37,850 nt of DNA, taken from positions 1 to 37,850 of the forward strand of contig NZ_JAEMSS010000018.1 of the NCBI RefSeq assembly GCF_016462705.1. Reading direction: 5' to 3'. The position numbers were made by a program, and so were the translations under genes. Below, piece after piece: positions 411 through 7,709 of the stretch (position 1 is its first letter; each line of letters opens with the position of its first letter). The notes under the pieces are model-generated. The model was not told the origin of the DNA. It was given only the letters and a program-made list of their open reading frames with translations, and made no database searches. The stretch comes from Nocardioides sp. (lineage in GTDB: Bacteria > Actinomycetota > Actinomycetes > Propionibacteriales > Nocardioidaceae).

Positions 411-908
411 GTGCTGAGAATGGGGGGAGCCGTGGTGTCCACACCTGCCTCGAGCACGCTGCCGACCCCCTCGGCCGTCCCCCGGACGGGCTGTGACCTC
501 CAGCCGGTCGACGTCGTGCGGGACGCGGTCCGGCACTTCGGGGCGCGCTACCTCGACCGGGTCTACACACCGGCCGAGCAGGCGTCGTACGCCGCCGGTG
601 GGCCGGCCTCGCTCGCGGCCCGGTTCGCGGCCAAGGAGGCGGTCCTCAAGCTGATCGGGACCGCGGACGGCGTCGACCTGCGCAGCGTGGAGATCAGGAC
701 GCCCGCGGTCGGCGGTGGCCGGCCGGCGGTGCACCTCACCGGCCGCGCCGCCGAGCTCGCCGAGGAAGCCGGCGTGGACGCCGCGGGCATCGACGTCAGC
801 CTGAGCCACACCGCCGACCTCGCCATGGCGGTCGCGATCGGGCTCCAGCGCCCCACCACCCAGACCACGAACGAGACCGCCACCATGAACGAGACAGGCA
901 CCGCATGA
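411..908 (+). CDS. Holo-ACP synthase / 4'-phosphopantetheinyl transferase-like (start may be 420, 432 or 435)
   Basis: AcpS-like motifs: GCDLQPVDVVRDAVRHFGARYLDRVYTPAEQ ... LAARFAAKEAVLKLIG ... DVSLSHTADLAMAVAI. Stop overlaps the next ATG (ATGA). Confidence 0.85.
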   Translation: MLRMGGAVVSTPASSTLPTPSAVPRTGCDLQPVDVVRDAVRHFGARYLDRVYTPAEQASYAAGGPASLAARFAAKEAVLKLIGTADGVDLRSVEIRTPAVGGGRPAVHLTGRAAELAEEAGVDAAGIDVSLSHTADLAMAVAIGLQRPTTQTTNETATMNETGTA

Positions 909-1177
909 CCGTCAAGGACCAGATCCGCGCCATCCTGGGGCAGCACGCCAAGCTCTCCACCGACATCTCCGCGGTGGGCGACGGTGACGACCTCTACGCG
1001 GCCGGGATGACCTCCCATGCCTCGGTGACGGTGATGCTGGCGTGCGAGGACGAGTGGGACATCGAGTTCCCCCAGCAGATGCTGAAGAAGAGCACCTTCG
1101 CCTCGGTGGACGCGATCGCCGCGGCCCTGGCCGAGCTCGACATCACCGACGGCGTCGGCTCCGGGGTGTCGTCGTGA
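905..1177 (+). CDS. Acyl (aminoacyl) carrier protein
   Basis: 90 aa, ACP-like helix pattern; DDLYAAGMTSHASVTVMLACEDEWDIEFPQQML with candidate phosphopantetheine Ser in GMTSHAS; between AcpS and an acyl-CoA-dehydrogenase-like gene with overlapping stop/start codons. Confidence 0.88.
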   Translation: MTVKDQIRAILGQHAKLSTDISAVGDGDDLYAAGMTSHASVTVMLACEDEWDIEFPQQMLKKSTFASVDAIAAALAELDITDGVGSGVSS

Positions 1178-2355
1178 AGCTGGCTGACGAGCACGAGGGC
1201 GTCGCGGAGGTCGTCGCGGTCGCGCGCCGGATCGGCCGTGACGTCGCCGCCGTCCACGCCGCCGACGTGGACGCCCACGCCCGGTTCCCCAAGGAGACCG
1301 TCGACGCGTTCCGCGCCGAGGGACTGCTCGGCGCGCTGGTCCCCGTGGAGCTCGGTGGCCTCGGCCACGACCTGCGCCAGGCCGCCGCGGTCGTCCGCGA
1401 GGTCGCCCGGCACTGCGCGTCCTCGGCGATGATCCTGGCGATGCACCACATCAAGGTCGCCTCGGTGGTGCGGCACATGACCTCCCGGACGGTGGAGGAC
1501 TTCATGCGCCGGGTCGCCACCGAACAGCTGCTGCTGGCCTCGGCCACCACCGAGATCGGCATCGGCGGCAACACCCGCAACTCCTCCTGCTGGGTCGAGC
1601 GGGAGGGTGACGGACCCGACCAGCGGTTCCGCCTGACCAAGCAGGCGCCGGTCATCTCCTACGGGCAGTACGCCGACGCGATCATCGTGACGGCCCGGCG
1701 CGACGCCGACAGCGCCCCCAGCGAGCAGGTCATGGTGATCTGCGAGGCGAAGGACGTGACCCTGACGCCGATCTCCGGCTGGGACACCCTGGGCTTCCGG
1801 GGCACCTGCTCACTCGGGTTCACCCTCGAGGCGACCGGACCGGCCGACCTGGTGATGGACCACCCCTTCGGCGACATCTCGACCGAGACGATGCTGCCCA
1901 CCTCGCACCTGCTGTGGTCCTCGTTGTGGCTGGGCCTGGCCGAGGAGGCCTCGTGGCGGGCCCAGCGCTTCATCCAGAAGGCCGCCCGCAAGGACCTCAA
2001 CCAGACCCCGCCAGGCGCGCCTCGCCTGGCCGCGCTGATGGTGACCAGGCAGCAGCTCGCGTCGTCGGTCGACGCGCTGATGAGCCGCTACCTCGACATC
2101 ATGGACGACGCCGAGGAGACCAGCTCGATCGACTTCATGGTCGCCATCAACACGCTCAAGGTGTCCGCGTCCACGTTGGTCGTCGACATCATCAACCAGG
2201 CGATGCTGATCGTCGGGATCCAGGGCTACCGGGAGGACACCGAGTACTCGCTGGGCCGGCTGCTGCGCGACGCGCACGGTGCGGCGGTGATGGTCAACAA
2301 CGACCGGATCGCCGGCAACACCGCCCAGCTCGCCCTCATGCAGCGCGAGAGCTGA
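1174..2355 (+). CDS. Acyl-CoA dehydrogenase-fold flavoprotein
   Basis: GTG start at 1174 overlaps ACP stop (GTGA). ACAD architecture: FPKETVDAFRAEGLLGALVPVELGGLG ... ASATTEIGIGGNTRNSSC ... GWDTLGFRGTCSLGFTLE ... QGYREDTEYSLGRLLRDAHGA. Confidence 0.88.
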   Translation: MKLADEHEGVAEVVAVARRIGRDVAAVHAADVDAHARFPKETVDAFRAEGLLGALVPVELGGLGHDLRQAAAVVREVARHCASSAMILAMHHIKVASVVRHMTSRTVEDFMRRVATEQLLLASATTEIGIGGNTRNSSCWVEREGDGPDQRFRLTKQAPVISYGQYADAIIVTARRDADSAPSEQVMVICEAKDVTLTPISGWDTLGFRGTCSLGFTLEATGPADLVMDHPFGDISTETMLPTSHLLWSSLWLGLAEEASWRAQRFIQKAARKDLNQTPPGAPRLAALMVTRQQLASSVDALMSRYLDIMDDAEETSSIDFMVAINTLKVSASTLVVDIINQAMLIVGIQGYREDTEYSLGRLLRDAHGAAVMVNNDRIAGNTAQLALMQRES

Positions 2356-2365
2356 GTCCACGACC

Positions 2366-3277
2366 GTGCCCGCGCCGTACGCCACCCCCGAGGACCTGCG
2401 GACCGTCCTGCTCGACGCGGGGCTGCTCGTGCAGACCCGCACCGACGGGCTCTACCACCGCTCGGGCGACTTCGAGGGGGTCCTGCAGGGAGTGGAGCGG
2501 TACGCCGCCGAGCAGCGCACCGACGCGACGGCGCCGCGGCGCTGGTTCCCGCCGATCATGGCCCGCGACGACTTCCTGCGCACCGACTACCTGCGCTCCT
2601 TCCCGGACCTCGTCGGGTCCGTCGACGTGTTCACCGGGGGCGACCAGGAGCACAAGCAACTGCTCGCCGAGCTGGAGGAGGGCCGGGACTGGACGCTCGC
2701 GCTGGACCCGGCCGAGGTGGTGCTGAGCTCGTCGATCTGCCACAGCCTCTACGGCACCCTGCCCACCGGGATCCCGGACGACGGGCTGCTGCACGAGTGC
2801 TGCGGGTTCGCGTTCCGGCACGAGCCGAGCCTCGACCCGGCCCGGATGCAGTCGTTCCGGATGTACGAGTTCGTGCTCGTCGGGACGCCGGCGCAGGCCG
2901 TGGCGCACCGCGACCTGTGGCTGCAGCGAGGCCTGGACTCGCTCGCGGCGCTCGGCCTGTCGGTGCGCAGCGATGCCGCCAACGACCCGTTCTTCGGGCG
3001 GGTCGGCCGGATGCTGGCCGCCAACCAGCTGCACGCCGAGCTGAAGTACGAGGTCCTGATCGACCTCACCGAGGCCAAGCCGACGGCGATCGCCTCCGCC
3101 AACTACCACGAGGACCACTTCGGCCTGCCGTTCGGCCTGACCACCCCGGACGGCGAGGTCGCGCACAGCGCCTGCTTCGGCTACGGCCTGGAGCGGATCA
3201 CGCTGGCCCTGTTCGCCACGCACGGCACCGACGTGACGGGCTGGCCCGGCGAGGTCCGGTCCCTCCTGGGATGTTGA
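2366..3277 (+). CDS. Amino acid--[acyl-carrier-protein] ligase (class II aaRS-like, no tRNA-binding domain)
   Basis: Class II motif 2-like HECCGFAFRHEPSLDPARMQSFRMYEFV and motif 3-like CFGYGLERITLALF; candidate Zn ligands C (SSICHSLYG), E (RMYEFV), C (SACFGYG). About 303 aa, catalytic core only; beside a carrier protein gene, as for the aa:CP ligases typified by Bradyrhizobium Bll0957. Confidence 0.88.
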   Translation: MPAPYATPEDLRTVLLDAGLLVQTRTDGLYHRSGDFEGVLQGVERYAAEQRTDATAPRRWFPPIMARDDFLRTDYLRSFPDLVGSVDVFTGGDQEHKQLLAELEEGRDWTLALDPAEVVLSSSICHSLYGTLPTGIPDDGLLHECCGFAFRHEPSLDPARMQSFRMYEFVLVGTPAQAVAHRDLWLQRGLDSLAALGLSVRSDAANDPFFGRVGRMLAANQLHAELKYEVLIDLTEAKPTAIASANYHEDHFGLPFGLTTPDGEVAHSACFGYGLERITLALFATHGTDVTGWPGEVRSLLGC

Positions 3278-3302
3278 GCCCTGAGATGTCGAGCAGGGTG
3301 TC

Positions 3303-5015
3303 GTGCTGAGCAGGCAGGTGTGGTTCGGCCCGGACGAGCGACCGCTCTACGGCTGGGTCGCCATGCCGGCCGACGGGCTGGTCCGCGGCGGTGTCGTCCT
3401 CTGCCCGCCGATGGGGGAGGAGGGGCGCTCGGCGCACCGGACCTTCCGGCGGCTCGCCGAGGCGCTCGCCGGCCGTGGCCTGGTCGCCCTGCGCTTCGAC
3501 TACGACGGCACCGGCGACTCCGCGGGACTCCAGGACGACCCGGACCGGGTGGCCTCCTGGCTGGCCAGCGTCGAGGCGGCCCGGCAGTACCTCCTCGACC
3601 TCGGCGCGCCCCACGTCTCGGCGGTCGGCATGCGCCTGGGCGCGACCCTGGCGGCCTGCCAGGCCGCCGCGTCGTCGCCGTTCCGCTCACTGGCGCTGTG
3701 GGACCCGTGCCTGAGCGGACGCACGTTCCTGCGCGAGGGCGAGGCGCTCTTCCTGCTCGGCGAGGACGACGGGCGGGCGCACGACGACGGGCTGCGGCAC
3801 ACGCCGGGCTTCCAGTACGACGCCGCGACCGCGTCGGCCCTGCGCGGCGTCGACCTGGCGAAGCTCCCGGAGGACCGGCCGCTGGCCGACCGGGTGCTCC
3901 TGCTCACCCGCACCGACCGGCCCGCGCCCGAGGGCATCGAGCGGCGGGTCCGGCTCGAGCCCGGGGACCTCACCTTCGGGCCGGCCACCGCGCAGGACCA
4001 GCTCCTCGACCGGACGCCGAGCGACTGCTACGTCCCCGAGGAGGCGCTGGCCTCGGTCGTGGGGTGGCTCGTGGCCGGCACCGACGAGGCCCGGGTCCCC
4101 GTCAAGACACCCGAGGAGTCCGGCGTACGCGTGGCGTCGGCCGGCCCCGGCTCGCGGCCGGTCCTCGAGCGGCCGACCCGGATCGGGTCGTTCGGGCTCT
4201 ACGGCATCGTCGACGAGCCGGTGACCCCGACCGACGCGCCCTGGGTGGTGCTGGTCAACGTGGCCGCCGAGCACCACATCGGCCCGGGCCGGCGCTGGGT
4301 GGAGTTCGCCCGGCGCTGGGCCGGCGACGGCTACCGGGTGGTGCGGATCGACCAGAGCGGCATCGGCGACAGCCCGTCCCACCCCGGCCAGGTGGAGGAC
4401 GAGCCGTTCGCGCCCGAGTGGATCGACGACATGCGGGAGGTCGTCCGTGAGCTGGCGGCCGACGGGTCGACGGTGGTGATCGCCGGGCTCTGCTCGGGGT
4501 CCTACTCGGCGTTCGAGGTGGCGCTGTGGGAGCGCGTCGAGGCGGTCTTCGCGGTCAACCCGCGGCTCACGCTCTACCCCGCGGCGAAGGGCACCCACGT
4601 CTACACACCGATCCGGCGGGCCGGCATCGTCCCGGCGGCACCGATCGCGGCGCTGGCCCGGCGGCACCGGATCCTGGCCGGCGGCCTGTGGCGCATCTAC
4701 CGCCAGGTGGCGGTCTGGCACGGCCCGTTCCGGGTGCTGCGCAGCGTCGTGAGACGCGGGACCGCCGTGCACGTGAGCGCGTGCCGCGACGACGCCCAGC
4801 ACTTCACCGAGGTCCTCTTCTGGCGCCCGTTCCTGGCCCGGCTGCGGCGGAACCCGCGGTTCCGCTTCGACCAGGACGAGGTCTTCGACCACTCGCTGCT
4901 CAGCCGGGCCGGCCAGCTGGCCACCTTCGACCGGGCGTCGGACTTCCTGGCGACCTACGTGCCGCTGGTCGACCGGCCAGGCACCGACGGCGTCGACGGG
5001 CGGGCCGCGTCGTGA
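3303..5015 (+). CDS. Tandem alpha/beta-hydrolase-fold protein
   Basis: 570 aa from GTG. Two halves each with hydrolase-fold signatures: GGVVLCPPMGEEGRSAHRTFRRLAEALAGRGLVALRFDYDGTGDSAG and NVAAEHHIGPGRRWVEFARRWAGDGYRVVRIDQSGIGDS...VVIAGLCSGSYSAFE. Confidence 0.82.
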   Translation: MLSRQVWFGPDERPLYGWVAMPADGLVRGGVVLCPPMGEEGRSAHRTFRRLAEALAGRGLVALRFDYDGTGDSAGLQDDPDRVASWLASVEAARQYLLDLGAPHVSAVGMRLGATLAACQAAASSPFRSLALWDPCLSGRTFLREGEALFLLGEDDGRAHDDGLRHTPGFQYDAATASALRGVDLAKLPEDRPLADRVLLLTRTDRPAPEGIERRVRLEPGDLTFGPATAQDQLLDRTPSDCYVPEEALASVVGWLVAGTDEARVPVKTPEESGVRVASAGPGSRPVLERPTRIGSFGLYGIVDEPVTPTDAPWVVLVNVAAEHHIGPGRRWVEFARRWAGDGYRVVRIDQSGIGDSPSHPGQVEDEPFAPEWIDDMREVVRELAADGSTVVIAGLCSGSYSAFEVALWERVEAVFAVNPRLTLYPAAKGTHVYTPIRRAGIVPAAPIAALARRHRILAGGLWRIYRQVAVWHGPFRVLRSVVRRGTAVHVSACRDDAQHFTEVLFWRPFLARLRRNPRFRFDQDEVFDHSLLSRAGQLATFDRASDFLATYVPLVDRPGTDGVDGRAAS

Positions 5016-5947
5016 TCAGCCTGTTCGGGCTCGACCCCGCGACGTACCGGCAGCACCCGCTGCACGACGGCGAGCGGACCTACCAGGAGACCAACTGCTT
5101 CGCCGACTGCGTCATCGAGCTGGTCGCGGCGGCGGGGCACGAGCCGGAGGCGATGCTGGCGGGCACCGCCGCGGTCGACTTCGAGGTCGACCAGTGGACG
5201 TTCTTCAAGCCGGCCCCCGAGGACCTGGTCACCCTCTACGGCCTCGACCTGCACGAGATGCAGCCCTACCGCTCCATCCCCGAGCAGACCGCCGCCCGGC
5301 TCGCGCTCGGGCAGACGACGATGCCCGAGGTCGACTCCTACTGGCTCCCGGACGTCGCGGCGACCGACTACCGCACCAACCACGTGAAGAGCTCCATCGT
5401 CATCGAGGGGATCGACCCCGACGCCCGGGTGCTGCGCTACTTCCACAACGCGGGCTACTTCGAGCTGTCCGGGGAGGACTACGACGGGCTGTTCGCGGAG
5501 CCCGCGCTGCCGCCGTACGTCGAGCTGGTGCGCTTCGGGGTGGCGCCCGCGCTCTCCGGCGACGCGCTCCGTGATGCTGCGCGCGTCCTTCTCGCCGACT
5601 CCCTTGGCCGCCGGCCCGCGGACAACCCGTTCGACCGGTTCCTGGCGGCGCTCGAGGCGGACCTGCCGCGGCTGCTGGAAGGGGACGAGGCCGACTACCA
5701 CGCGTACGCGTTCCACAACCCGCGGATGGCCGGCGCCTCGTTCGAGCTGCTCGCGAGCCACGTGCGGTGGCTCCTCGGCGAGGAGGGCGAGCAGGCGGCG
5801 GCCGCCCTCGACGACGTGGTCGGTGGCACCAAGATGCTGCTGTTCCGGCTGGCCCGGCGCCGCGCGTTCGACGTCGCCGGGGTCGTCGGCCCGATGGCCG
5901 AGGGCTACGCGACCGCGATGACCGAGCTCGACCGTCTGGTTTCCTGA
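5012..5947 (+). CDS. DUF1839 family protein
   Basis: GTG start overlaps previous stop (GTGA). VISLFGLDPATYRQHPLHDGERTYQETNCFADCVIELVAAAGHEPEAMLAGTAAVDFEVDQWTFFKPAPEDL recognised as DUF1839-like and typical of aa:CP ligase neighbourhoods. Confidence 0.8.
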   Translation: MISLFGLDPATYRQHPLHDGERTYQETNCFADCVIELVAAAGHEPEAMLAGTAAVDFEVDQWTFFKPAPEDLVTLYGLDLHEMQPYRSIPEQTAARLALGQTTMPEVDSYWLPDVAATDYRTNHVKSSIVIEGIDPDARVLRYFHNAGYFELSGEDYDGLFAEPALPPYVELVRFGVAPALSGDALRDAARVLLADSLGRRPADNPFDRFLAALEADLPRLLEGDEADYHAYAFHNPRMAGASFELLASHVRWLLGEEGEQAAAALDDVVGGTKMLLFRLARRRAFDVAGVVGPMAEGYATAMTELDRLVS

Positions 5948-5951
5948 CCAC

Positions 5952-7709
5952 GTGCGCGAGGTCCTGGAGTTCGAGCGGATCACCCCGGAGCCGGGTCCGG
6001 ACGCCGACTCGGTGCGTCACGAATGGGTGGCCCAGGTCGAGGTCGACGAACCGGGGGGCGCGACCCTCGAGATCGGGGGCATCGCGACGGTCTGGGACGT
6101 CCTGGTCAATGGCGACGTCGTCGCCTCCGGGCGCTCGATGTTCGAACCCCGCACGGTGGACGTGTCCGGTGCCGTGCGGTCCGGCGGCAACGAGGTGCGG
6201 GTCGTCGTGCACCCGCTGACCGACCTGCTCGACGAGCTGCCCCGCAAGCCCCGGGCGCGCTGGCGGACCATGCTCGTCGACGAGCCGCGGCTGCGCTGGG
6301 TGCGGACCCAGGTCCTCGGCCGCGCGCCCGGGTTCGCACCCGGCCCGCCCGTGGTCGGGCCGTACCGGCCGATGGTGCTGGCCACCGAGCCGGCGCCGGT
6401 GGCCGATCGCGTGGGCACCTGGTGGCCGCACACCCACGGCACGCGGGAGGCGACGGGGCACCGCACCGTCGAGAACCGGTCGGAGGACTCGCTCGACCTC
6501 CGGGTCAACGGCGAGCGGGTGTTCGTCCGCGGCGTCGTGTGGACGCCGGGCGACCTCGCGGCGCTCGACACCGCCGTGGAGCTGGGCTTCAACCTGGTCC
6601 GGGTCAGCGGCGTCTCGGCCTACGAGAGCGACGAGTTCTACCGGCGCTGCGACGAGCTCGGGCTGATGGTGTGGCAGGACCTGATGTTCGCCACGTTCGA
6701 CTACCCGCTGTCCGACGAGTCGTTCCGGAGCACGGTCGAGGCCGAGGTCCGGGACCAGCTGGCCCGGCTCAGTGACCACCCGTGCGTCGTGGTCGTCTGC
6801 GGTAGCGCCGAGCACGAGCAGCAGGCGGCGATGTTCGGGGTCAGCCCCTCGACCGGGTACGCCGGCGAGCTGGCGGCGTTCCTGAAACCGCTGTTCGACG
6901 ACTCCGGCGTCGACGCCGTGTGGGTGGACAGCTCGCCGAGCGGCGGCGACCCGGTGGTCCGCGTCGACACCGGGATCGCGCAGTACTTCGGGGTCGGGGC
7001 GTACCTCCGCGACCTGCCGGACGCCCGGCACAGCGGCGTGCGGTTCGCCGCCGAGTGCCTGGCCTTCGCCAACCTTCCCGACCCGCTCGTCGCCGGGGGC
7101 GTGCCGCGGGACAACGGTGCCGACTGGGACTTCGCCGACGTCCGCGAGCACTACGCCCTGGCCCGCTACGGCCCGGACGCGACCGAGACCGAGCGGCAGC
7201 GGGTCACGGGCGAGGTGATGGCCGACGTCTTCGGCGAGTGGCGTCGGCCGGCCTCACCGTGCGGCGGCGGCATCGTGCTGTGGCTGCGGGACCTCGAGCC
7301 GGGTTCCGGCTGGGGCCTCCTCGACCACACCGGCTCGCCCAAGCCGGCGGCGCACGCCCTCGCGCCCGTCCTGCAGCCGACCGCGGTCTGGCTCGTCGAC
7401 GAGGGGCTCAACGGGCTCGACGTCCACGTCGCCCACGACCGCGGTGAGCCGGCCGACCTGACCCTCGCCGTGGAGCTGCTCCGCGAGGACGGCTCGGTCA
7501 TCGAGTCCGCCGAGCGGGCCTGGACGATGGAGCCGCACGGGCACCGGCGCTGGACGGTCGACGCCCTGCTCGGCCGGTTCGCGGACTCGTCGTACGCCTA
7601 CCGCTTCGGCCCGCCCCCGCACGCCGCGGTCCGGGCGAGCCTCACCGGCGACAGCATCGAGCGCGAGTCGACCTGGCACGTCCCCGGCCCGCCGACTCGG
7701 CGTTACTGA
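5952..7709 (+). CDS. Glycoside hydrolase family 2-like (beta-mannosidase-like) protein
   Basis: RVNGERVFVRGVVWTPGDLAALDTAVELGFNLVRVSGVSAYESDEFYRRCDELGLMVWQDLMFATFDYPLSDESF matches the GH2 beta-mannosidase TIM-barrel pattern; candidate acid/base Glu in VCGSAEHEQ, candidate nucleophile Glu in RFAAECLAFANLPDP. Confidence 0.78.
   Translation: MREVLEFERITPEPGPDADSVRHEWVAQVEVDEPGGATLEIGGIATVWDVLVNGDVVASGRSMFEPRTVDVSGAVRSGGNEVRVVVHPLTDLLDELPRKPRARWRTMLVDEPRLRWVRTQVLGRAPGFAPGPPVVGPYRPMVLATEPAPVADRVGTWWPHTHGTREATGHRTVENRSEDSLDLRVNGERVFVRGVVWTPGDLAALDTAVELGFNLVRVSGVSAYESDEFYRRCDELGLMVWQDLMFATFDYPLSDESFRSTVEAEVRDQLARLSDHPCVVVVCGSAEHEQQAAMFGVSPSTGYAGELAAFLKPLFDDSGVDAVWVDSSPSGGDPVVRVDTGIAQYFGVGAYLRDLPDARHSGVRFAAECLAFANLPDPLVAGGVPRDNGADWDFADVREHYALARYGPDATETERQRVTGEVMADVFGEWRRPASPCGGGIVLWLRDLEPGSGWGLLDHTGSPKPAAHALAPVLQPTAVWLVDEGLNGLDVHVAHDRGEPADLTLAVELLREDGSVIESAERAWTMEPHGHRRWTVDALLGRFADSSYAYRFGPPPHAAVRASLTGDSIERESTWHVPGPPTRRY

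Follow-up and report, generated by a model that had tools for sequence, protein, structure and literature searches.

Organization of the operon

The DNA analysed here, hereafter called the window, comprises positions 1 to 37,850 of contig NZ_JAEMSS010000018.1 of Nocardioides sp. (assembly GCF_016462705.1), and its positions 411–7709 hold an operon built around an amino acid:[carrier protein] (aa:CP) ligase. We propose, with a probability of about 0.62, that this operon encodes a cytoplasmic, carrier-protein-dependent pathway in which an amino-acid-derived acyl group is attached to an amino sugar that most likely serves as a building block for a polysaccharide of the cell surface; the pathway would be self-contained. 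An earlier note, made from the sequence alone, had described seven co-directional genes joined by overlaps and short gaps, and this description was borne out by the coordinates and by family scans, which back the names of all seven genes (Table 1). The genes are tightly packed, with overlaps at 905–908 (ATGA), 1174–1177 (GTGA) and 5012–5015, the first two read off the DNA, and remaining gaps of 10, 25 and 4 nt. As the same order recurs in several phyla, the arrangement is far beyond chance. A simple hydropathy scan found no signal peptide or transmembrane segment in any of the seven proteins. The nearest relatives of the ligase belong to Nocardioides (83% identity).

Table 1. Genes of the operon at positions 411–7709 of the window
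Product	Position	Strand	Family evidence
AcpS-type phosphopantetheinyl transferase	411..908	+	PF01648 47 bits; TIGR00556 50.9 bits (cut-off 45.35); FAAKEAVLK motif
Aminoacyl carrier protein	905..1177	+	NF005480 105 bits (cut-off 72); attachment Ser in GMTSHASV
ACAD-fold flavoprotein	1174..2355	+	PF02771/PF00441
Class II aaRS-like amino acid:[carrier protein] ligase, Bll0957 type	2366..3277	+	NF005479 371.1 bits (cut-off 357)
Fused tandem alpha/beta hydrolase	3303..5015	+	TIGR03101 90.3 bits, TIGR03100 63.5 bits, both under curated cut-offs
DUF1839 protein	5012..5947	+	PF08893 299.1 bits (cut-off 22.5)
GH2 beta-mannosidase-like protein	5952..7709	+	PF22666 33 bits (cut-off 27)

(ACAD, acyl-CoA dehydrogenase; aaRS, aminoacyl-tRNA synthetase; GH2, glycoside hydrolase family 2.)

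The loading module

By its sequence, the ligase genuinely belongs to the Bll0957 type of aa:CP ligases, as the earlier note had held: besides exceeding the NF005479 cut-off, it matches the PDB entries 4h2w (E 2.5e-67) and 3mey (E 1.2e-66), and its residues C125, E153 and C270, which from established family knowledge we take to be the zinc ligands, are invariant in 10 sequences and align with the corresponding residues of the type-2 seryl-tRNA synthetase (SerRS) 3w3s. The protein, of 303 aa, consists of the catalytic core only, with no tRNA-binding domain, and a genome-wide search found it to be the sole NF005479 ligase of the 4.3 Mb genome from which the window derives. The best PDB matches of the carrier protein are the aminoacyl carrier protein of 4h2w and Agrobacterium Atu2571; its attachment serine is invariant (76 of 76), and it is encoded beside the ligase. 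The AcpS-type phosphopantetheinyl transferase would be expected from its family assignment to convert the carrier protein to the holo form, and its gene adjoins that of the carrier in Nocardioides, Microbacteriaceae, some Undibacterium, Priestia and Tsukamurella. The conserved neighbourhood supports the assignment of these three genes to loading.

Conservation of the operon

A scan of 85,462 species genomes for the ligase gave at least 560 loci, the best 80 of which were examined over up to 10 kb on each side using core-gene profiles derived from the window together with eight plasmid loci. The genes for carrier protein, ACAD-fold protein, ligase, DUF1839 and GH2-like protein, on one strand and in this order, were complete in 68 of these 80 loci, a fraction that applies to the most window-like ligases and does not hold for remote ones; a further five were cut by contig ends after DUF1839, and seven were without some parts. 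The complete loci span 37 groups at genus level, distributed over Actinomycetota, Alpha-, Beta- and Gammaproteobacteria, Myxococcota and Chloroflexota. The position of the tandem hydrolase gene varies: it follows the GH2-like gene in many loci and lies between the ligase and DUF1839 genes in Nocardioides, including the window. Co-occurrence of the ligase with the DUF1839, hydrolase and GH2-like genes beyond close relatives, on which the earlier note had made its proposal depend, is thus seen across phyla.

The reverse comparison showed DUF1839 to be rare, present in 3 of 397 Actinomycetota genomes (the window's own included) and in 4 of 289 genomes of the class of the Mesorhizobium locus (that centre included). 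When DUF1839 genes were drawn without use of the ligase (L097–L102), the ligase was found adjoining or close by; in L097 the order is rearranged, with the halves of the operon in opposite orientation. Pairwise distance matrices for the ACAD-fold protein, ligase, DUF1839 and GH2-like protein correlate at 0.83–0.92 over 76 loci, a value to which shared organism history contributes. Plasmids yielded 87 records with a ligase homologue and 59 with DUF1839; no relatives of the operon were found in viral contigs. Several larger shared flanking clusters were discarded as antisense shadow ORFs, none having any Pfam match.

Ligases also occur in other surroundings. Two Rhizobiales-type loci (L033 and L039) have only the carrier protein and ligase, with no other core gene nearby, and Streptomyces plasmid ligases of approximately 30% identity sit in other clusters. 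One of these, on a plasmid of Streptomyces decoyicus (L015:6898-11864), lies beside genes for a carrier protein, DpgABC, a glycine amidinotransferase, a P450 and a PGM1-type peptide ligase, and is probably part of a different peptide pathway that uses the same ligase fold.

DUF1839 as a predicted acyltransferase

The structure model of the DUF1839 protein (pLDDT 96.1, pTM 0.93) has a papain-like fold, and the only confident Foldseek matches were AziU3, CcbD and CtaG (E 4e-9 to 1e-5, probability 1.00), with TM scores of 0.56–0.65 over most of the chain and the value of 0.65 for CcbD. Like the model of the ACAD-fold protein below, it was built from an alignment without plasmid sequences. In an alignment of 47 proteins Cys29 is present in 46 and His145 in all 47. 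The spacing between these residues, 116, may be compared with 112 in CcbD (C19/H131) and 117 in CtaG (C11/H128) (PDB titles, PMC12945683); T/S127–128, D156 and E171 are candidates for a third catalytic residue. CcbD and LmbD join a carrier-bound amino acid to an amino sugar through an amide bond, using a ping-pong mechanism of the Cys-His-Glu type (PMC12945683), and CtaG is reported to be a peptidyl transferase acting from one carrier to another (PMC6772006). In the open-access literature DUF1839 is named only in a survey of papain folds, which counted it with the papain-like proteins that have a Cys-Thr/Ser-His set and suggested that it acts on glycans at the cell wall (PMC10318531). A profile search of PDB sequences connected DUF1839 with no solved protein at the sequence level and, because no homology is detectable in this way, the likeness to CcbD, CtaG and AziU3 is to be read as ‘works like’ and not as family membership. 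On the basis of the model, we predict that DUF1839 is an amide-forming acyltransferase resembling these three enzymes. Transfer or hydrolysis had been suggested for it previously; the fold supports the former, and amide formation is a better fit than hydrolysis.

The single C29R exception is the operon DUF1839 of the Cupriavidus metallidurans CH34 megaplasmid (L013:8934-9878, + strand). About 4 kb from it is a second copy of the DUF1839 gene that is intact (490 bits; L013:13692-14666, − strand), and the pair constitutes natural material for probing the active site.

The ACAD-fold flavoprotein

The earlier note had assigned tailoring of the aminoacyl group to the ACAD-fold protein; the conserved neighbourhood agrees with tailoring, and the residues at the catalytic positions speak against dehydrogenase chemistry. 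In our alignment, the position of Glu376 of medium-chain acyl-CoA dehydrogenase (MCAD) is occupied by Val or Ile in 40 of 40 sequences, and that of Glu254 of isovaleryl-CoA dehydrogenase, which precedes an invariant histidine (His245), by Ser, Thr or Ala in the rows displayed, so that a catalytic glutamate was found at neither site; the two reference positions are those that we take from established knowledge of the family. The protein therefore appears to be without the known catalytic glutamates and is, despite its label, probably not a dehydrogenase. The structure model (pLDDT 93.5) has the monooxygenase TdsC as its top fold match, followed by dehydrogenases, DszC, KijD3 and DnmZ. The fold is compatible with a group D flavin monooxygenase, and no flavin reductase partner was found within the conserved operon core. 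Since the dehydrogenase glutamates seem to be lost, an oxygenase-type modification of the carrier-bound aminoacyl group is more likely, as judged from alignment and model, than dehydrogenation.

We regard it as rather unlikely that the protein is a genuine alpha,beta-dehydrogenase converting alanyl- to dehydroalanyl-carrier protein with an unusual base such as His245. The invariance of this histidine would fit such a role, acyl-CoA dehydrogenases are the best matches of the sequence profile, and many dehydrogenases appear among the fold matches at similar E-values, so that the fold search alone does not separate the two activities. Against this stand the substitutions at both glutamate positions, the rank of TdsC as best fold match and the presence of KijD3 and DnmZ among the matches. 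Glycine, moreover, has no beta carbon and, if it is the substrate, alpha,beta-dehydrogenation is impossible.

The GH2-like protein and the tandem hydrolase

The GH2-like protein matches beta-mannosidases in the PDB (E 1.5e-20) and is short in the window, at 585 aa compared with about 815–830 aa in most relatives. E287 and E368, which we assign by motif, from established GH2 knowledge, as the presumed acid/base and nucleophile, are invariant (76 of 76), and the residue preceding the acid/base glutamate is Ser or Ala in 75 of 76 sequences, the normal Asn being found in one. With this Asn replaced and no signal peptide indicated by hydropathy, the protein looks more like an intracellular enzyme whose sugar recognition has changed than like a secreted mannosidase.

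In the fused hydrolase a half resembling exosortase-A hydrolase 2 is followed by one resembling hydrolase 1. The same pair is known from exosortase-A-associated polysaccharide loci, from which the window protein differs in scoring below the curated cut-offs (63.5 vs 168.45 bits for TIGR03100 and 90.3 vs 202.75 bits for TIGR03101). Its N-terminal half has lost the nucleophile, with Arg in its place (GMRLG in the window, GLRLG or GMRLG in most same-strand relatives), and its C-terminal half has a Cys in the nucleophile elbow (GLCSG) that is kept in most same-strand relatives. A Cys in this elbow may favour acyl transfer, as in polyhydroxyalkanoate synthases.

Association with polysaccharide genes

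Among 40 host genomes picked for taxonomic spread, Pfam identified 116 priming sugar-phosphotransferases of family PF02397. Nine of the 40 operon windows (L022, L025, L030, L043, L049, L057, L059, L080 and L083) had such a gene within 10 kb, compared with 0.43 expected when scaled to genome length for 40 windows of 21 kb (P about 1e-9, some genera being represented twice so that not all events are independent). When any of four markers (PF02397, GT4, Wzx or Wzz) was counted, 28 of the 80 loci were positive as against one of 37 control windows from the same genomes; the GT4, Wzx and Wzz profiles, having been grown from loci of the operon, are biased toward them, and GT4 can also catch glycogen synthase, a profile bias of which the PF02397 count is free. 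Copies in Microbacteriaceae directly precede genes for a polytopic, flippase-like membrane protein (our own reading, with no Pfam match) and a Wzc-type kinase, and those in Tsukamurella lie within a glycosyltransferase cluster. The suggestion of a sugar-linked acceptor or product, made earlier from the GH2-like gene, thus gains support from the exopolysaccharide context, the conserved neighbourhood and the fold of DUF1839.

The operon occurs among soil and plant-associated bacteria. On the Rhizobium gallicum plasmid pRgalR602b (L012:1-15440) it comes after nifHDKENX-fdxB and a gene for an exopolysaccharide repressor, with the ACC deaminase gene behind it, which hints at a symbiosis-linked use.

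Proposed pathway and alternative explanations

Starting from the observed gene identities, conservation of the operon, polysaccharide context, DUF1839 fold with its Cys and His, and loss of the dehydrogenase glutamate, we infer a substrate, an order of steps, an acceptor and a product, together with roles for the GH2-like protein and the hydrolase. AcpS would convert the carrier protein to its holo form, and the aaRS-like ligase would adenylate a small amino acid, to judge from its family Gly or Ala, and load it onto the carrier. The ACAD-fold flavoprotein would then oxidize the carrier-bound group, probably as an oxygenase and not as a C–C dehydrogenase, after which the Cys of DUF1839 may accept the acyl group and pass it to the amino group of a sugar in a ping-pong reaction like that of CcbD in lincosamide formation. 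The GH2-like protein might handle or trim the sugar partner, and the Cys-type hydrolase might edit or release acyl groups. A more specific version, which we offer tentatively and consider possible at best, is that the operon installs a decoration not described before, an oxidized (e.g. N-hydroxylated) glycyl or alanyl amide, on a surface-polysaccharide amino sugar across several phyla. DUF1839 would then be a stand-alone condensing enzyme of the CcbD kind with a wide distribution, and the GH2-like protein would have been remodelled for a cytoplasmic sugar intermediate.

Several observations weigh against the proposed pathway. About two thirds of the 80 loci have none of the four polysaccharide markers nearby; Nocardioides copies lack them within 10 kb, and both PF02397 genes of the window genome are on other contigs. 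The Microbacteriaceae and Tsukamurella copies that do lie in polysaccharide clusters are without DUF1839 and GH2, so that transfer there must work otherwise. A DUF1839 sequence profile finds none of CcbD, CtaG and AziU3 among PDB sequences, and the open-access literature contains no reaction, product or mutant phenotype for the operon. It might be argued that the product is a small diffusible metabolite (a dipeptide, amino-acid antimetabolite, signal or siderophore) and that the polysaccharide neighbours are incidental. The unmarked Nocardioides copies fit this explanation, as do the natural-product pathways to which the CtaG and AziU3 folds belong. It is also favoured by a Priestia megaterium plasmid (L014:6133-14680) on which AcpS, carrier protein, ACAD-fold protein and ligase are accompanied, with no DUF1839 or GH2, by a DMT transporter as exporter, a dapdiamide-synthase-like ATP-grasp ligase, an alpha/beta hydrolase, an alanine permease and an alanine racemase; that cluster looks like one for an alanine-derived antimetabolite, the racemase possibly serving self-protection. 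We nevertheless consider a diffusible product fairly unlikely for the operon at large, as polysaccharide genes are strongly enriched in several phyla, every complete operon has a glycosidase and the conserved core includes no exporter or resistance gene.

The acceptor itself may be questioned, in that DUF1839 could esterify or thioesterify either a hydroxyl of a polysaccharide or a lipid carrier, or could hydrolyse the thioester in an editing reaction. Papain-like enzymes include peptidases and hydrolases (PMC10318531), and the conserved core has no gene for amino-sugar biosynthesis; yet the nearest folds are amide-forming, carrier-dependent enzymes and the operon already has a separate hydrolase, and we consider an acceptor other than an amino sugar quite unlikely. 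Two further candidates were rejected: a nonribosomal peptide synthetase (NRPS) starter module, there being no NRPS domain in the conserved core, and a valanimycin-type tRNA-dependent transfer, there being neither a tRNA-binding domain nor a GNAT partner of the MprF/VlmA type.

If the proposed pathway is correct, it represents a tRNA- and NRPS-independent route for putting amino-acid groups on bacterial surface glycans. Structures of aa:CP ligases have been known since 2010, with no reaction to follow the loading. Now that a conserved partner is predicted to share the fold of an amino-sugar-condensing enzyme, the purpose of the loaded carrier becomes assayable in one pot.

Relation to known systems

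The description of the operon as a candidate uncharacterized pathway holds as regards ‘uncharacterized’; it is not new, as both the operon concept and a guess at its function were published in 2010. A note added in proof to that paper (Biol Direct 2010 5:48; PMC2922099) described the neighbourhood of the SerRS-like aa:CP ligase and predicted, from gene neighbourhoods alone, that an amino acid is ligated to a sugar of the cell surface at an amino group; the conserved ORF (Atu2574) was taken for the amide ligase and the redox enzyme for a monooxygenase. The ligase, acyl carrier protein, redox enzyme, conserved ORF, glycosidase, polysaccharide linkage and functional prediction are common to that account and ours; its text includes no structures or counts and makes no mention of AcpS or the tandem hydrolase, and the window copy differs in being actinobacterial, in having the hydrolase inside the operon and in its short GH2-like protein. 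The present analysis adds the structural likeness to CcbD, a survey with counts and statistics, the evidence on active sites and the actinobacterial arrangement.

The lincosamide synthetase (LmbC/CcbC adenylation domain, carrier protein and LmbD/CcbD) likewise employs a papain-like Cys enzyme, of a fold shared with DUF1839, to join a carrier-bound amino acid to an amino sugar. It differs in its stand-alone NRPS adenylation domain, its antibiotic product, the lack of any reported ACAD-fold or GH2 partner in the condensation step, and the absence of a sequence-level match between CcbD/LmbD and DUF1839. With the Bll0957/Atu2573 ligases and the carrier Atu2571 the window shares the protein families, zinc-site residues and adjacency of ligase and carrier; the biochemistry of that system ends at carrier loading, and a 2022 review still called the role of aa:CP ligases unknown (PMC9437257). 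Elsewhere in the open-access literature ligase loci are named only in tables of expression data or lists of modules; in a phaR mutant, bll0957 and bll0958 (acd) are jointly increased (PMC10888616).

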